A stretch of DNA of 58,261 bases. Origin: Acidimicrobiales bacterium. Lineage in GTDB: Bacteria > Actinomycetota > Acidimicrobiia > Acidimicrobiales > DASWMK01. The notes beneath the pieces were generated by a model. It was not told the origin of the DNA. It searched no databases and saw nothing but the letters and a program-made list of their open reading frames with translations. The position numbers and the translations under genes were made by a program. The stretch lies in assembly GCA_036399815.1 (NCBI GenBank), contig DASWMK010000177.1:1-58261 (forward strand). Direction: 5' to 3'. Every line of letters starts with the position of its first letter. Positions within the stretch are counted from its first letter, which is position 1. Positions 5,643 through 10,910 of the stretch are shown piece by piece.

Positions 5643-7067
5643 TCAGCGGCGCAGGATGGCCAGCAGCTGCTGCGCCGAGACCACGTTCGCCCCCCGCCCG
5701 GCGGCCCCCGCACGGACCCGCCCGTCGCTGGTGGCGACCACGACCGGCCGCTCCGCCGGCACGGACGCGACGAGGTCGAGCACGACATCGTCGGCCTCGA
5801 CCCCCTCCGGAGAGAAGGTGACGCGCACTCGGCGCACACCCCGCCGGCGTGCCGCCGCCGTCGTCTCGGGAGCCGCCCCGTCGAAGACGACGTGCAGGTC
5901 GGCGGCGGTGCGGGCCTCGAGCGCCTCGAGCGCGTCGAGCAACCGCTCCCGCTGCTCGGCGATCGGGAGATGGTCCCAGGCGGAGCGGGAGACGTTGTAG
6001 CCGTCCACCAGGACCGTCGCCGGCTGGCGCACGAGCCAGGCTGCGGCCTCGACGCTGCCCTCCTCGATGCCGCCGGGCAGGCGCAGCGGCCGGCGACGGG
6101 CCGCCGACTGCCCCCGCGGCTGCCGGCTCAGGCGCCGGCCGTCGACGCCCGGACCAGCCGGTTCGCGCCGTCCGCCCGTCGGCTCGTCCTGCGGCGGCCG
6201 GGCGTCGAGCAGCGCGGCGAGCGCGCCCAGCGCACCGGCGAGGTCCTCCGCGGCCCTCGCCGCCGCTCCGACCTGCGCGGCGACGGCGCCCCGGTCCACC
6301 GGTGCGGCGGTGTGGGCGACGGGGGCCGGGTCGCCGTCCGCCTGCAGGTCGGGATCGGCGATGGTCGGCGCTCCGGCGGCCGCCGCGTCCGGGGGTGCCG
6401 TCCGCTGGCCAACGTCGTCAGGAGGGTCGTCGCGCGGGGGTGTGCTCGCGCCCGCCGCCGACCGCAGCCGGGCGACCTCCTCGGCCAGCTGCTTCGCCTC
6501 CGCTCCCTTGGCCGCGAGGCGTCGCTCGGCGTCGCTCGCCCGGCGCTTGGCCCCGAGCGACTCGGCGCGGACACGAGCCAGCTCGGCCTCCAGCTCGGCG
6601 AGCGCCGCCTGCGCCTGGCGACGGGCCCGGTCCGACGCCGCCAGCTCGGCGCGCAGCGCGTCCCGCTCCTCCTCCAGGCTCCGCTGCCGGCGCCGTGCCT
6701 CCCGCTCCGCCTCCCGACGGGCCCGGCGCTCGGCGGCGGCCACGCCGCTCGTGCGCTCCTCGGACGCCGAACGGACCAGGTCGTCCAGCTCCGCCTCCCA
6801 CCCGTCGGGCCGGTGCAGCCAGAGCCAGCCGGCCCGGCCGACGTCGTCCTCGTCGGCCACCATGGCCACCCGGGCGCGGAACCCGTCGTCGGACGCCACG
6901 CCGCGCCGCACGTCCTCCCACGCCGCCGAGGACAGCTTGGCGAACCCGAGCACCCGCTCCACCGGCTTCGGTGCCGGCAACGACGGCTTCACCACCTTGC
7001 CGGCGCGGGCGACGTCGAGCGCCAGGTCCAGGGCGGGCCGCAACAGCCCGGCGAGCTCGTCGCTCAG
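5643..7067 (-). CDS. NYN-domain (PIN-like) predicted RNase with coiled coil
   Basis: Three parts can be seen. An N-terminal helical domain (residues ~1-100) is followed by a strongly charged Glu/Arg/Ala coiled coil of roughly 110 residues (ERRARREAEREARRRQRS and onward). After a proline-rich linker comes a C-terminal NYN domain starting ATVLVDGYNVSRSAW, with the later acidic residues VVFDGA, EADDVVLDLV and VVATSDGRVR. NYN domains are PIN-like, metal-dependent RNases; YacP-type members act in RNA turnover. The downstream end is firm. The start is uncertain: a CTG at 7067 overlaps the stop of the zinc-ribbon gene, and a GTG near 7127 is an alternative. Coupled to the zinc-ribbon gene. Confidence 0.8.
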   Translation of the reverse strand: MSDELAGLLRPALDLALDVARAGKVVKPSLPAPKPVERVLGFAKLSSAAWEDVRRGVASDDGFRARVAMVADEDDVGRAGWLWLHRPDGWEAELDDLVRSASEERTSGVAAAERRARREAEREARRRQRSLEEERDALRAELAASDRARRQAQAALAELEAELARVRAESLGAKRRASDAERRLAAKGAEAKQLAEEVARLRSAAGASTPPRDDPPDDVGQRTAPPDAAAAGAPTIADPDLQADGDPAPVAHTAAPVDRGAVAAQVGAAARAAEDLAGALGALAALLDARPPQDEPTGGRREPAGPGVDGRRLSRQPRGQSAARRRPLRLPGGIEEGSVEAAAWLVRQPATVLVDGYNVSRSAWDHLPIAEQRERLLDALEALEARTAADLHVVFDGAAPETTAAARRRGVRRVRVTFSPEGVEADDVVLDLVASVPAERPVVVATSDGRVRAGAAGRGANVVSAQQLLAILRR

Positions 7068-7291
7068 GCCGCCCCCTCGTTCCCCGGCACGGCCACGACC
7101 TCGACCGCGCCACTCGTGCCGCACCAGCGGCAGGCGACGTCCTCGACCGTCTCGGCCAGCACCGTCTCGTCCTCGACGGTCAGCTCGCCACCGAGGGTGT
7201 AGTGGTGGAAGGAGCGGGTCCGGCGGGTGGCGGTGACGTCGAACCGCGTGAGGTTCCCGCACGACGTGCAGCGGTAGCGGACGGCGCCCAC
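7064..7291 (-). CDS. Small zinc-ribbon protein
   Basis: 75 residues with two CxxC pairs, YRCTSCGNLTRFDV near the N-terminus and ACRWCGTSGAVEVV near the C-terminus, spaced as a four-Cys zinc ribbon. The ligand set is complete. GTG start at 7291. The stop overlaps the likely start of the NYN gene, so the two are probably translated together; a nucleic-acid role for the pair is plausible but inferred. It is divergent from the SOS-type promoter that drives the nuclease gene on the plus strand. Confidence 0.75.
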   Translation of the reverse strand: MGAVRYRCTSCGNLTRFDVTATRRTRSFHHYTLGGELTVEDETVLAETVEDVACRWCGTSGAVEVVAVPGNEGAA

Positions 7292-7333: not shown

Positions 7334-7363
7334 TTGACATCGAACGTACGTTCGATCTAGCCT
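7334..7363 (+). promoter_or_regulatory. Promoter with embedded LexA (SOS) box
   Basis: A consensus -35 TTGACA lies at 7334-7339 and a -10-like TAGCCT at 7358-7363. Between them is a perfect 18-bp palindrome ATCGAACGTACGTTCGAT (7339-7356), which matches the Gram-positive/actinobacterial LexA site CGAAC-N4-GTTCG exactly. LexA bound here would occlude RNA polymerase. The start codon of the downstream nuclease gene is at 7371, so the mRNA would be leaderless or nearly so. Site seen directly; SOS control is inferred from the known motif. Confidence 0.85.
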
Positions 7364-7370
7364 CGCCGCC

Positions 7371-9670
7371 ATGCACCGGTGCTCCGACGACCTCGGCACC
7401 CCGCTGGCGGACGTCACGTTCGCCGTCGTGGACGTCGAGACGACAGGCGGCGACCCGTCGTCGGACGCCATCACCGAGATCGGTGCGGTCAAGGTGCGCG
7501 GCGGCGAGCGCCTCGGCACCTTCCAGAGCCTGGTCGACCCGGGCCGCACCATCCCACCGTCGATCACCGTCCTCACGGGGATCACCGAAGCGATGGTGGT
7601 CCGAGCGCCGCGCATCGAGCCCGTCCTGCCCGCCCTGCTCGAGTTCGTCGGTGGGAGCGTCGTCGTCGGGCACAACGTCCGCTTCGACCTGGCCTTCCTC
7701 GGTGCCGCGCTCCTCCGGGCCGGCTACGACCGCCTCGGCAACCCGTCGGTCGACACGTGCGCGCTGGCGCGCCGCCTGCTCGTGGGGGACTTGCCCGACT
7801 GCCGGCTCGGCACGGTCGCCGACGGGCTGCGCCTCGACCACCGCCCGACCCACCGGGCGCTCGACGACGCGCTCGCCACGGTCGACCTGCTGCACGCCCT
7901 GCTCGAGCGGGTCGGCACGCTCGGCGTGACGGGCCTCGACGACCTCCTCCTCCTGCCCACCATCCACGGTCCCGCTCGGCTGGCCAAGCTGCGCCTCACC
8001 GCCCACCTGCCGCGGCGGCCGGGCGTGTACGTCTTCCGCGACGACGGTCGTCGCGTCCTCCACGTCGGCACCGCCTCGAACCTCCGGGCGGCTGCGCGGT
8101 CCTACCTCTCGGGCGGGGGCCGTCGGCAGATGAGCGCGCTCGTGCGGGAGACGGCGACGGTGGACCACGTCGTGTGCGGGGGCACGCTGGAGGCGACGGT
8201 CCTCCGCTCGCGGCTCGCCAGCCGGTTCGTGCCCCGCCACGACCCTGCTGCGGACTGGCGCCGGTACGCCTACGTGAAGCTGAGCCTCGGCGAGCGCTTC
8301 CCGCGGCTCGCGGTGGTCGCCGAGGTACGCGACGACGGTGCCCTGTACCTCGGGCCGCTGCCGTCGCGGCGCGAGGCGCGGCTCGCCGTGGAAGCCGTCG
8401 AGACGGTGGTGCCGCTGCGACGGTGTGGCGCCCGGCCGCCCCGAACGCCGCGACCGGCGCCGTGCGCGCCCGCCCGCCTCGGCGTCGCCACGTGCCCCTG
8501 CGCCAGCGACATCTCGGAGCGGGCCTACGGGTCGCTCGTCGACGTGGTCGTGGGTGGACTGACGTCCGACCCGGAGCTTTTGCTCGCGCCGCTCGACCAG
8601 CGGCTGGACCGTCTCACGGCGGCGGGTCGGTACGAGGACGCGGCCGGCGTGCGGGAACGGGCCGCGGCGCTCGCGTCGGCCATCGCCACGCAGCGACGCC
8701 TCGACGCGCTCCGCCGAGCGGGCCGCACGGTCGTCGAGGGGCCCGGCGGCGAGTGGGCCGAGATCGAGGACGGACGCCTCGTCCGGGCGTGGCGGCCGGC
8801 GCCGGCGACGGCGAGCCAGGCACCGGACGCCGCTCCGGACGCCCTCGAGGACGCGGGCGCCGTGGGGGACGGCGCCCGCCACGGCGGCGACGGCTCGCGG
8901 CGGGCCGTCGCCGCCCACGAACGACCCGCCGTCTCGGCGGGGGCCGTGGCGGTGCGGGCTGCGCCCGCGCCGGGTGCGGTCGACCGGGGCGGGGGGTCGG
9001 GGACCGGCGACGGACCGGGAGGGGCCGTCGCAGCGCACGGGGCGGCAGCCGGAGCGTTCGCGCCCACGCTCCGCCTGGCCGGACCGGCACGGCCTGCGCT
9101 CGGCGGTGGGGGTGGCCGCCGAGCGCGCACGGCGGCCGTCGGGCCGGGCGGTCACGCCCCGCCCGGCCCGGCGGTCCCGCTCGCTCCGGCGGGCGGGGGC
9201 GGCGACCGACCGAGCGACGGCACCGAGCTCGGCCGGTCCTCCGTCACCGGTGAGGGCCGACGCCGACACCCGGACGGCGTCCGCTCTCCCGGTACGGCCG
9301 CCACGGGGCCGTCGAGCGCCGTGTGCGGTCCGACGGTGGTCCCGCCGCCCGGCGAGGAGGCGGCCGGGCGAGGCGCGCTGGCCCCTGTGGGGGCGACGGG
9401 CGACGGGGCGGGGGTGGGAGCCTCCGCGGGCGCTGTCGGCGCGGTCGGCGCCGGCTCGGCTGGTCGGCTCGTCCCGTTGCCGAGGCACGTCGTGGACGAG
9501 GTCGTGTGCGTCGCCCGGTGGCTCGACGACGAGGCATCCCGCGTGCGCGTCGTCCACTCGGAAGGCGGGCTGGCGCACCCGGCCGACCGGCTACGGACGT
9601 TCGCGCCGAGGACGGCGCCACTCGCCCGAACCTCCGGGCCGGAGGAGCGTCGCTACCCTGGCCCGGGTGA
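7371..9670 (+). CDS. DEDDh exonuclease fused to UvrC-like GIY-YIG nuclease; C-terminus disturbed
   Basis: Residues ~15-175 are a DnaQ-type 3'-5' exonuclease: FAVVDVETTGGDP (D21, E23), VGHNVRFDLAFL, and HRALDDALATVDLL with the catalytic His/Asp. Residues ~205-400 resemble the GIY-YIG and following region of UvrC/Cho (RRPGVYVFRDDGRRVLHVGTA). A helix-rich UvrBC-like part follows (DQRLDRLTAAGRYEDAAGVR). A ~220-residue Gly/Ala/Pro linker (8805-9465) is unusual. The conserved C-terminus (VVDEVVCVARWLDDEA to RLRTFAPR) ends near 9612. The reading frame then stays open to 10910 through two other genes. A one-base shift after ~9612 would give a TGA at 9668-9670 forming a GTGA overlap with the next gene, so I place the functional end there. 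Probably a DNA-repair nuclease under SOS control. Confidence 0.75.
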
Positions 9671-10620
9671 GCCCGGTCGAGGTGTTCCTCGTCCTCCTCC
9701 TCCTGTCCATCCTCGTCACCGCGCTCGCGACGGCGTTGGCGTGGCGGCAGGTGGTGCGGCGCAACCGGGTGAGCAGGACTACGCCCACGCCAGCGCCGCT
9801 GTGGTGGCTGGTGTTGCCCTCCGAGGCGGCACGGCTGCATCGCAGGCTGCGGGCCGCGGTGGTCGCCGCCCGGCTCGTCGCGCCGGCCGGGCGCCGCCGC
9901 CAGCGAGCGCCCCGGTCGCCGATCGCCGAGATGGTGGACGACCTGGAGGCGCAGGCGGTGGCGGTCGACCTCCAGGTCGTCGCGGCCGCCCGGGCGACGG
10001 CGCGCGACCGGCGGCAGCGTCTCCGGGCGCTCGATGGGCACGTGCGGCGGATCGAGGACCTGTCGGCCCGCCTGGTCGCCGCCGGGGTGGCGGCGTCGGC
10101 GCACCGGCAGCCGAGCCACCAGGCGTCGCCGCTCGACGCCATCGGCGAGCGCCTCGACGCACTGGAGGCGGCGAGGGACGAGCTCGCGGCGATCGAGGCT
10201 GCGTTGGGGCTGGCGCCCTCCGGTGTCCCGGTCGCCCCGCCGTCGACCGCGGGCCTGCCCGGCGCGGGGGTGTCGATCCCGTCCTTCATCCCCGGTGGGA
10301 ACCGGGTCGACAGTGGGGGCGTCGCGTCGGCGGCCCCGGCACGATCGTCCGCCCACCTGCCGCCTCCCCCGCCGACGATGTCCTCGGCACCATCGCCCGC
10401 GCCGCCGCCACCGCCGTCGTCCTCGGCTTCTCCCCCGCCGCCGCCGATCTCCTCCGCCCAACCACCTCCTCCCCCGCCGCCGCCGGCGCCGGCCGTCCTC
10501 CCGGCGCCGCCACCTGCGGCGACAACGCCGATCCCGCCGATCCCTCCGCCCCCGGTCGGCGTGCCCCGGCGCCCGGGGCGGCGATCGGCGCCACCGGACG
10601 GCGATCGGCGCCACCGGTAG
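9667..10620 (+). CDS. Single-span membrane protein with coiled coil and proline-rich tail
   Basis: GTG at 9667 preceded by GGAGGAG (9641-9647). Residues ~4-25 form one clear transmembrane helix (VFLVLLLLSILVTALATALA). A basic cytosolic segment and a ~130-residue Ala/Arg/Leu/Glu helical region likely to be coiled coil (AVAVDLQVVAAARATARDRR and RIEDLSARLVAAG) follow. The last ~110 residues are extremely Pro/Ser-rich. 317 aa in total. No known family. Such anchored coiled-coil/proline-rich proteins are often scaffolds, but the role here is unknown. Confidence 0.7.
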   Translation: MSPVEVFLVLLLLSILVTALATALAWRQVVRRNRVSRTTPTPAPLWWLVLPSEAARLHRRLRAAVVAARLVAPAGRRRQRAPRSPIAEMVDDLEAQAVAVDLQVVAAARATARDRRQRLRALDGHVRRIEDLSARLVAAGVAASAHRQPSHQASPLDAIGERLDALEAARDELAAIEAALGLAPSGVPVAPPSTAGLPGAGVSIPSFIPGGNRVDSGGVASAAPARSSAHLPPPPPTMSSAPSPAPPPPPSSSASPPPPPISSAQPPPPPPPPAPAVLPAPPPAATTPIPPIPPPPVGVPRRPGRRSAPPDGDRRHR

Positions 10621-10631
10621 CCTTCGCCGCC

Positions 10632-10910
10632 ATGGTGTCCGCCTTCGTCCTGATCAAGGCCGTGCCGGCCCGCATCGCGGCGCTGGCGTCGGAGCTGGCG
10701 GAGGTGGACGGCGTCGCCGAGGTGTACTCCGTGTCCGGCGACGAGGACCTGGTCGTCGTGGTGCGGGTCCGCAAGCACGAGGACCTCGCCGACGTCGTCA
10801 CCCGCCGTATCGCCGGGCACGAGGGCATCCTCGCCACCCGGACGCTCATCGCCTTCCGCTCCTACAGCCGCCACGATCTCGAGGCGATGTGGAGCCTCGG
10901 CGTGCAGTAG
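10632..10910 (+). CDS. Stand-alone AsnC/Lrp ligand-binding (RAM) domain protein
   Basis: 92 residues covering only the effector/dimerisation domain of Lrp/AsnC regulators. It begins SAFVLIKAVPARIAALASEL, has the loop VYSVSGDEDLVVVVRVRKHE, and ends LATRTLIAFRSYSRHDLE. No helix-turn-helix is present. Free-standing RAM domains (SraA-like) form octameric rings that bind amino acids and are typical of actinobacteria and archaea. ATG at 10632, 11 bp after the stop of the membrane-protein gene. It happens to share the reading frame of the upstream nuclease gene; I interpret this as coincidence or damage, not fusion. Confidence 0.85.
   Translation: MVSAFVLIKAVPARIAALASELAEVDGVAEVYSVSGDEDLVVVVRVRKHEDLADVVTRRIAGHEGILATRTLIAFRSYSRHDLEAMWSLGVQ

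Follow-up and report, generated by a model that had tools for sequence, protein, structure and literature searches.

A perfect LexA box lying between the -35 and -10 elements of a gene that joins a DEDDh exonuclease to a UvrC-like half raises two questions: whether the gene belongs to the SOS response, and what its product would do on damaged DNA. We addressed both for such a locus in an Acidimicrobiales MAG, within a contig of 58,261 nucleotides that was analysed as a whole and is called the window below. The DnaQ-UvrC fusion has been known in Actinobacteria for two decades, and a tested role for it was not found in the literature searched. Our overall explanation, to which we give a probability of roughly 0.6, is that the locus encodes a LexA-repressed, damage-induced exonuclease with a non-cutting UvrC-like targeting half.

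The -35 hexamer agrees with the consensus at 6/6 positions, and its final A is also the first base of a perfect 18-bp palindrome, ATCGAACGTACGTTCGAT (Table 1). Within this palindrome lies the perfect LexA 16-mer TCGAACGTACGTTCGA, which corresponds to the complete actinobacterial SOS box, TCGAAC-N4-GTTCGA. The spacer between TTGACA and TAGCCT is 18 bp, and the ATG of the fusion gene stands 15 bp 3' of the box. An earlier, sequence-only reading of this DNA had placed a perfect palindrome exactly between these two hexamers and 15 bp before the gene start, and both placements are borne out. Its further description of the promoter as consensus holds for the -35 and is slightly generous for the -10, because TAGCCT matches TATAAT at only 3/6 positions, the TAnnnT core; this is also why a consensus scan lists no sigma-70 promoter at the locus. 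Judging from the position of the -10, the mRNA of the fusion gene is probably leaderless.

Table 1. Positions in the window of the promoter elements, the parts of the fusion gene and the two divergent genes upstream.
Feature	Position	Strand	Basis or remark
-35, TTGACA	7334..7339	+	sequence; TTG enriched at the same offset in orthologues
LexA/SOS box, TCGAACGTACGTTCGA	7340..7355	+	perfect palindrome extends over 7339-7356; genome counts, conservation
-10, TAGCCT (TAnnnT)	7358..7363	+	sequence; corresponding place A/T-enriched in orthologues
Predicted transcription start and ATG (7371), putatively leaderless mRNA	7370..7373	+	-10 position
DEDDh exonuclease/UvrC-like fusion gene, conserved extent	7371..9614	+	frame open until 10910
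DEDDh exonuclease domain (RNase_T, aa 19-174)	7425..7892	+	catalytic D21, E23, D106, H161, D166 intact
UvrC-like GIY-YIG domain (aa 208-292)	7992..8246	+	fold retained; replaced catalytic positions: H231, T234, A241, R279, D291
Four-cysteine region (C352, C365, C375, C377)	8424..8501	+	orthologue alignment
UVR/UvrBb-like helical hairpin (aa 402-449)	8574..8717	+	uvrC models aa 211-441; predicted helices
Ala/Gly/Pro/Arg-rich low-complexity linker, ~215 aa	8796..9440	+	linker of orthologues much shorter
Conserved C-terminal segment (VVDEVVCVARWLDDEA...RTFAPR)	9441..9614	+	orthologue comparison
Divergent four-cysteine Zn-ribbon gene	7064..7291	-	
YacP-like NYN-domain gene	5643..7076	-	coiled-coil-like long N-terminal part

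The gene is a member of a known family, the actinobacterial 'Cho-like+Exo' class, in which a DnaQ-type (DEDDh) exonuclease is joined to a UvrC/Cho-like GIY-YIG half. Its product scores 484 bits against NCBIfam NF005907 (PRK07883, 'DEDD exonuclease domain-containing protein'; cut-off 454), and NCBIfam and Pfam confirm the DEDDh and UvrC-like fusion that had been read from the letters. The uvrC models match aa 211-441 of the protein; Pfam UVR gives no score on it, and a helical hairpin is predicted in the corresponding region. All five DEDDh residues are kept and all four cysteines are present. The exonuclease part of a predicted structural model matches structures of DnaQ, DinG, PolC and ExoX. 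We also considered whether the MAG has another, active copy of the fusion, and rejected this: the protein is single-copy, and the only other match is the canonical UvrC, which keeps its own GIY-YIG residues.

The GIY-YIG domain of the fusion protein has lost nearly all of its catalytic residues. Aligned to T. maritima UvrC, and in the numbering of that protein, it carries Y29H, K32T, R39A, E76R and N88D, and among the catalytic Tyr/Arg/Glu/Asn set only Y19 is kept. Y29, R39, E76 and N88 are invariant across the 168 other aligned orthologues, while K32T is found in some of them. Among columns conserved at 95% or more, the window protein has lost 5/13 in the GIY-YIG domain (four of them catalytic), 1/32 in the exonuclease and 0/7 in the Cys/UVR region. 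Median identity to Acidimicrobiia is 0.48 against 0.63 for the GIY-YIG domain, the lowest of all Acidimicrobiia members, and is ordinary elsewhere (0.68 against 0.70 for the exonuclease, 0.52 against 0.53 for the C4/UVR region). By these measures, the relaxation is limited to the GIY-YIG domain. The fold itself is supported by a sequence match to 1yd6/1ycz and by the predicted model (pLDDT 88.6), in which the strands and helices of the domain appear as expected; a PDB fold search, in which the matches listed are exonucleases, neither adds to nor contradicts this. By residue criteria, the GIY-YIG half is very likely unable to cut in this species. The word nuclease, which the sequence-only reading applied to the whole protein, thus stands for the DEDDh half by the same criteria and is unsupported for the UvrC-like half, because its catalytic residues are lost, a point that reading had missed.

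No similarly dead GIY-YIG was found among the 29 orthologues nearest to the domain, drawn from 397 genomes of the order. Two of these (L242 and L245) read Q at the last catalytic position, probably through an alignment shift. Degeneracy as a clade trait was rejected, being absent from the 168 aligned and the 29 nearest orthologues. The substitutions are known from one MAG and are unconfirmed in a second strain, because the genomes searched include no other of its family.

The gene could be decaying or broken here, through loss of function or through sequence error, with the perfect box left as a relic. Beyond its conserved extent the frame stays open up to a stop at 10910, running through a membrane-protein-like gene that begins at about 9669 in a different frame and ending inside an Lrp/AsnC-type gene, in whose ligand-binding domain (ATG near 10632) it is in frame. 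Codon-position GC is coding-like to about 9614 and places the gene end at ~9614-9670, so that a stop has been lost or an indel is present; the open frame 7371-10910 reflects either a missing stop, an indel or an assembly error. An other-frame stop at 9668-9670 overlaps the GTG of the next gene. The low-complexity insertion that forms the linker reaches a local GC of 86% and, like the missing stop, fits decay or assembly error as well, in a sequence that comes from a MAG assembly. Against a broken gene, however, no internal stop or frameshift is found through the conserved extent, the box is perfect, and sequencing error does not look like single substitutions at five catalytic positions. Because the exonuclease and C4/UVR parts evolve at ordinary rates and keep all of their catalytic residues, a pseudogene is not favoured as the main reading, and we regard it as unlikely. 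A narrower version is that the UvrC-type GIY-YIG could simply be decaying in this protein.

A different possibility is that the GIY-YIG domain cuts in addition to the DEDDh domain, as in other, ordinary family members, so that the gene encodes an SOS-controlled two-nuclease repair enzyme in which the odd residues are tolerated. The family architecture and the kept fold speak for this, as do the retained Y19 of UvrC and the fact that K32T by itself is frequent among Mycobacterium-like members. Such an enzyme would nevertheless have to work with four otherwise invariant residues replaced, the metal-binding Glu included, in the least conserved GIY-YIG domain of all Acidimicrobiia members, and we consider it improbable. 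Since the GIY-YIG is dead by residue criteria, the fusion would most likely work as an induced exonuclease.

We turn to the evidence that the box is a LexA site. In the window, TCGAACGTACGTTCGA is the sole match at up to 3 mismatches, and its own mismatches number zero. Across the 4.16-Mb MAG, CGAACRNNYGTTCG occurs at eight sites and TCGAACNNNNGTTCGA at two, and the reversed pattern of each at none. The exact box core lies upstream of recA, of dnaE2 and of a RecA-like (ImuA'-type) gene, the latter two named from sequence with no family search, and the same MAG has a lexA gene, with several degenerate boxes next to it. LexA sites of Streptomyces venezuelae share a half-site with TCGAACGTACGTTCGA, the published SOS box being TCGAAC-N4-GTTC (PMC9380542).

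The sequence-only reading had pointed to conservation upstream of orthologues as a check on LexA control. In 79 Acidimicrobiia loci, with protein identities of 49-64% in their best segments, the exact core CGAACNNNNGTTCG lies within -150..+20 in 67/79, and the other 12/79 have it with one mismatch. The reversed pattern in the same interval gives none at up to one mismatch; windows of equal size taken within the gene give 0 exact cores and 5/79 with one mismatch; and elsewhere in the 79 loci the exact core occurs only 4 times in ~507,000 positions. The first in-frame start codon follows the box by 12-15 nt in 50/79 loci, and the orthologue profile has TTG just before the box and T/A enrichment just after it. 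Spacing and flanks are as one would expect if a repressor occupied the interval between the -35 and -10 elements of a promoter for leaderless mRNA. Conservation among orthologues, together with the boxes at recA, dnaE2 and the RecA-like gene, supports the LexA/SOS control that had been proposed, and we conclude that the fusion gene is almost certainly under LexA control, as a putative member of the SOS regulon.

It is very improbable that the palindrome is instead the site of a non-LexA regulator or mainly serves the divergent Zn-ribbon gene. The latter is present upstream in 40/79 loci, with its start as close as 24-40 bp to the box; yet its distance from the box ranges over 24-143 bp, whereas the spacing to the exonuclease start is tight, and a non-LexA regulator does not agree with a motif that recurs at recA, dnaE2 and the RecA-like gene and matches the published box (PMC9380542). 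A chance palindrome, conceivable in that 18/100 shuffled windows hold at least one match at up to 3 mismatches, is rejected at practically no remaining probability by the perfect match, the promoter position and conservation at no more than one mismatch in 79/79 testable orthologues.

Outside Acidimicrobiia the box is patchy and is present in several other actinobacterial classes. Among 90 further orthologues sampled across the phylum, the exact core lies upstream in 43/90, and a one-mismatch site was accepted in 7 more; one further such site (L208) was left out of the count, since the box is otherwise missing from its family. Whole families in this sample lack it upstream, including f87, f75, f78 and f81, the first of which we presume to be Mycobacterium-like. 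A gene tree from which the GIY-YIG columns had been left out explains the presence of the box with 9 changes; shuffled labels need 36. Exonuclease-only orthologues without the GIY-YIG half were found three times (L117, L118 and L221), at the same locus as judged by the Zn-ribbon gene, and they show that the exonuclease can persist without that half. Of these complete exonuclease-only forms, L221 has the box, so that the idea that loss of the GIY-YIG always entails loss of the box was not upheld; L117 and L118 are without it, and SOS control therefore does not always stay with the exonuclease.

Rv2191 is the mycobacterial member of 'Cho-like+Exo' (PRK07883). In the literature searched, including PMC8151990 and PMC9380542, no link between LexA and Rv2191 was found, and neither Rv2191 nor its Streptomyces counterpart was among the LexA targets. 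The absence of the box in the presumed Mycobacterium-like family agrees with this. Elsewhere Rv2191 is mentioned only in passing, in one paper with an H2O2-linked activation, and there too no LexA link was found. For LexA control of the DnaQ-UvrC fusion in general, no report was found in the literature searched, the coverage of which is incomplete.

These elements suggest how the locus might work. LexA would occupy the box between the -35 and -10 and thereby block RNA polymerase; upon damage, RecA filaments on the DNA would provoke LexA self-cleavage, and the mRNA would then be made. The product would combine an active-looking 3'-5' DEDDh exonuclease with the N-terminal half of UvrC, that is, its GIY-YIG, Cys cluster and putative UvrB-binding hairpin. 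Both nuclease sites appear intact in most orthologues, whose protein would nick near the lesion and then degrade the strand that carries it. In this species, the UvrC-like half would only place the exonuclease at UvrB/DNA, the separate, intact UvrC would make the cut, and the fusion protein would remove the strand. We infer the adaptor role of the UvrC-like half, and we propose the targeted-exonuclease role of the fusion protein tentatively, at somewhat short of even odds. Still more tentative is a joint reading, in which SOS control of the fusion is an old and widespread trait of non-model actinobacterial classes that is absent from Mycobacterium-like genomes, and a UvrC-type GIY-YIG that has become non-cutting in this lineage targets an SOS-induced 3'-5' exonuclease that divides its labour with UvrC.

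Several known systems resemble parts of this one. UvrC has GIY-YIG, Cys region and UvrBb (here a predicted hairpin) in the same order; the window protein differs in lacking the EndoV/HhH half, in having a DEDDh exonuclease and in its dead GIY-YIG, whereas the UvrC of the same MAG is intact. E. coli cho is under SOS control, and Cho (YdjQ) is thus alike both in regulation and as a homologue of the UvrC half. Unlike the window protein, however, Cho is without an exonuclease domain, has another C-terminal domain and is catalytically active (PMC1564403). In Salmonella, ydjQ is listed in a table of SOS genes (PMC8072944). MrfB of Bacillus subtilis, a DEDDh exonuclease for mitomycin repair, is likewise a DnaQ-superfamily exonuclease in DNA-damage repair, a likeness drawn from the exonuclease fold only; it differs in being genetically paired with the MrfA helicase, and no UvrC-like half is reported for it (PMC10889028). 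The 'Cho-like+Exo' class of Actinobacteria, described in a phylogenomic analysis (PMC1564403), shares the N-terminal DEDDh exonuclease, the UvrC-like GIY-YIG, the Cys cluster and, as predicted here, the UvrBb-like hairpin; an older proposal quoted there has the GIY-YIG domain nick and the exonuclease digest the damaged strand. The window protein departs from the class in its lost GIY-YIG catalytic residues and long linker, and from the presumed Mycobacterium-like members in its LexA box, none having been found upstream of theirs.

Conservation of the LexA box, in Acidimicrobiia as well as in other classes, would assign the family to the DNA-damage response and points to organisms for tests. 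Natural GIY-YIG-dead and exonuclease-only variants are ready-made separation-of-function forms for each half.

Three further exact-core boxes were seen in the same MAG (L231:1501-1514, L232:1501-1514 and L228:1501-1514). Their neighbours, named from sequence only, are a nitroreductase-like gene, a DUF4188-like gene and an unidentified gene, and these are possible additional SOS genes. About four degenerate LexA boxes are clustered at L096:2144-2265, between lexA and a divergent LysM-protein/NrdR pair; other Gram-positive bacteria have a lexA-LysM arrangement that this cluster resembles. In the window, the YacP-like gene adjoins the Zn-ribbon gene on the minus strand.
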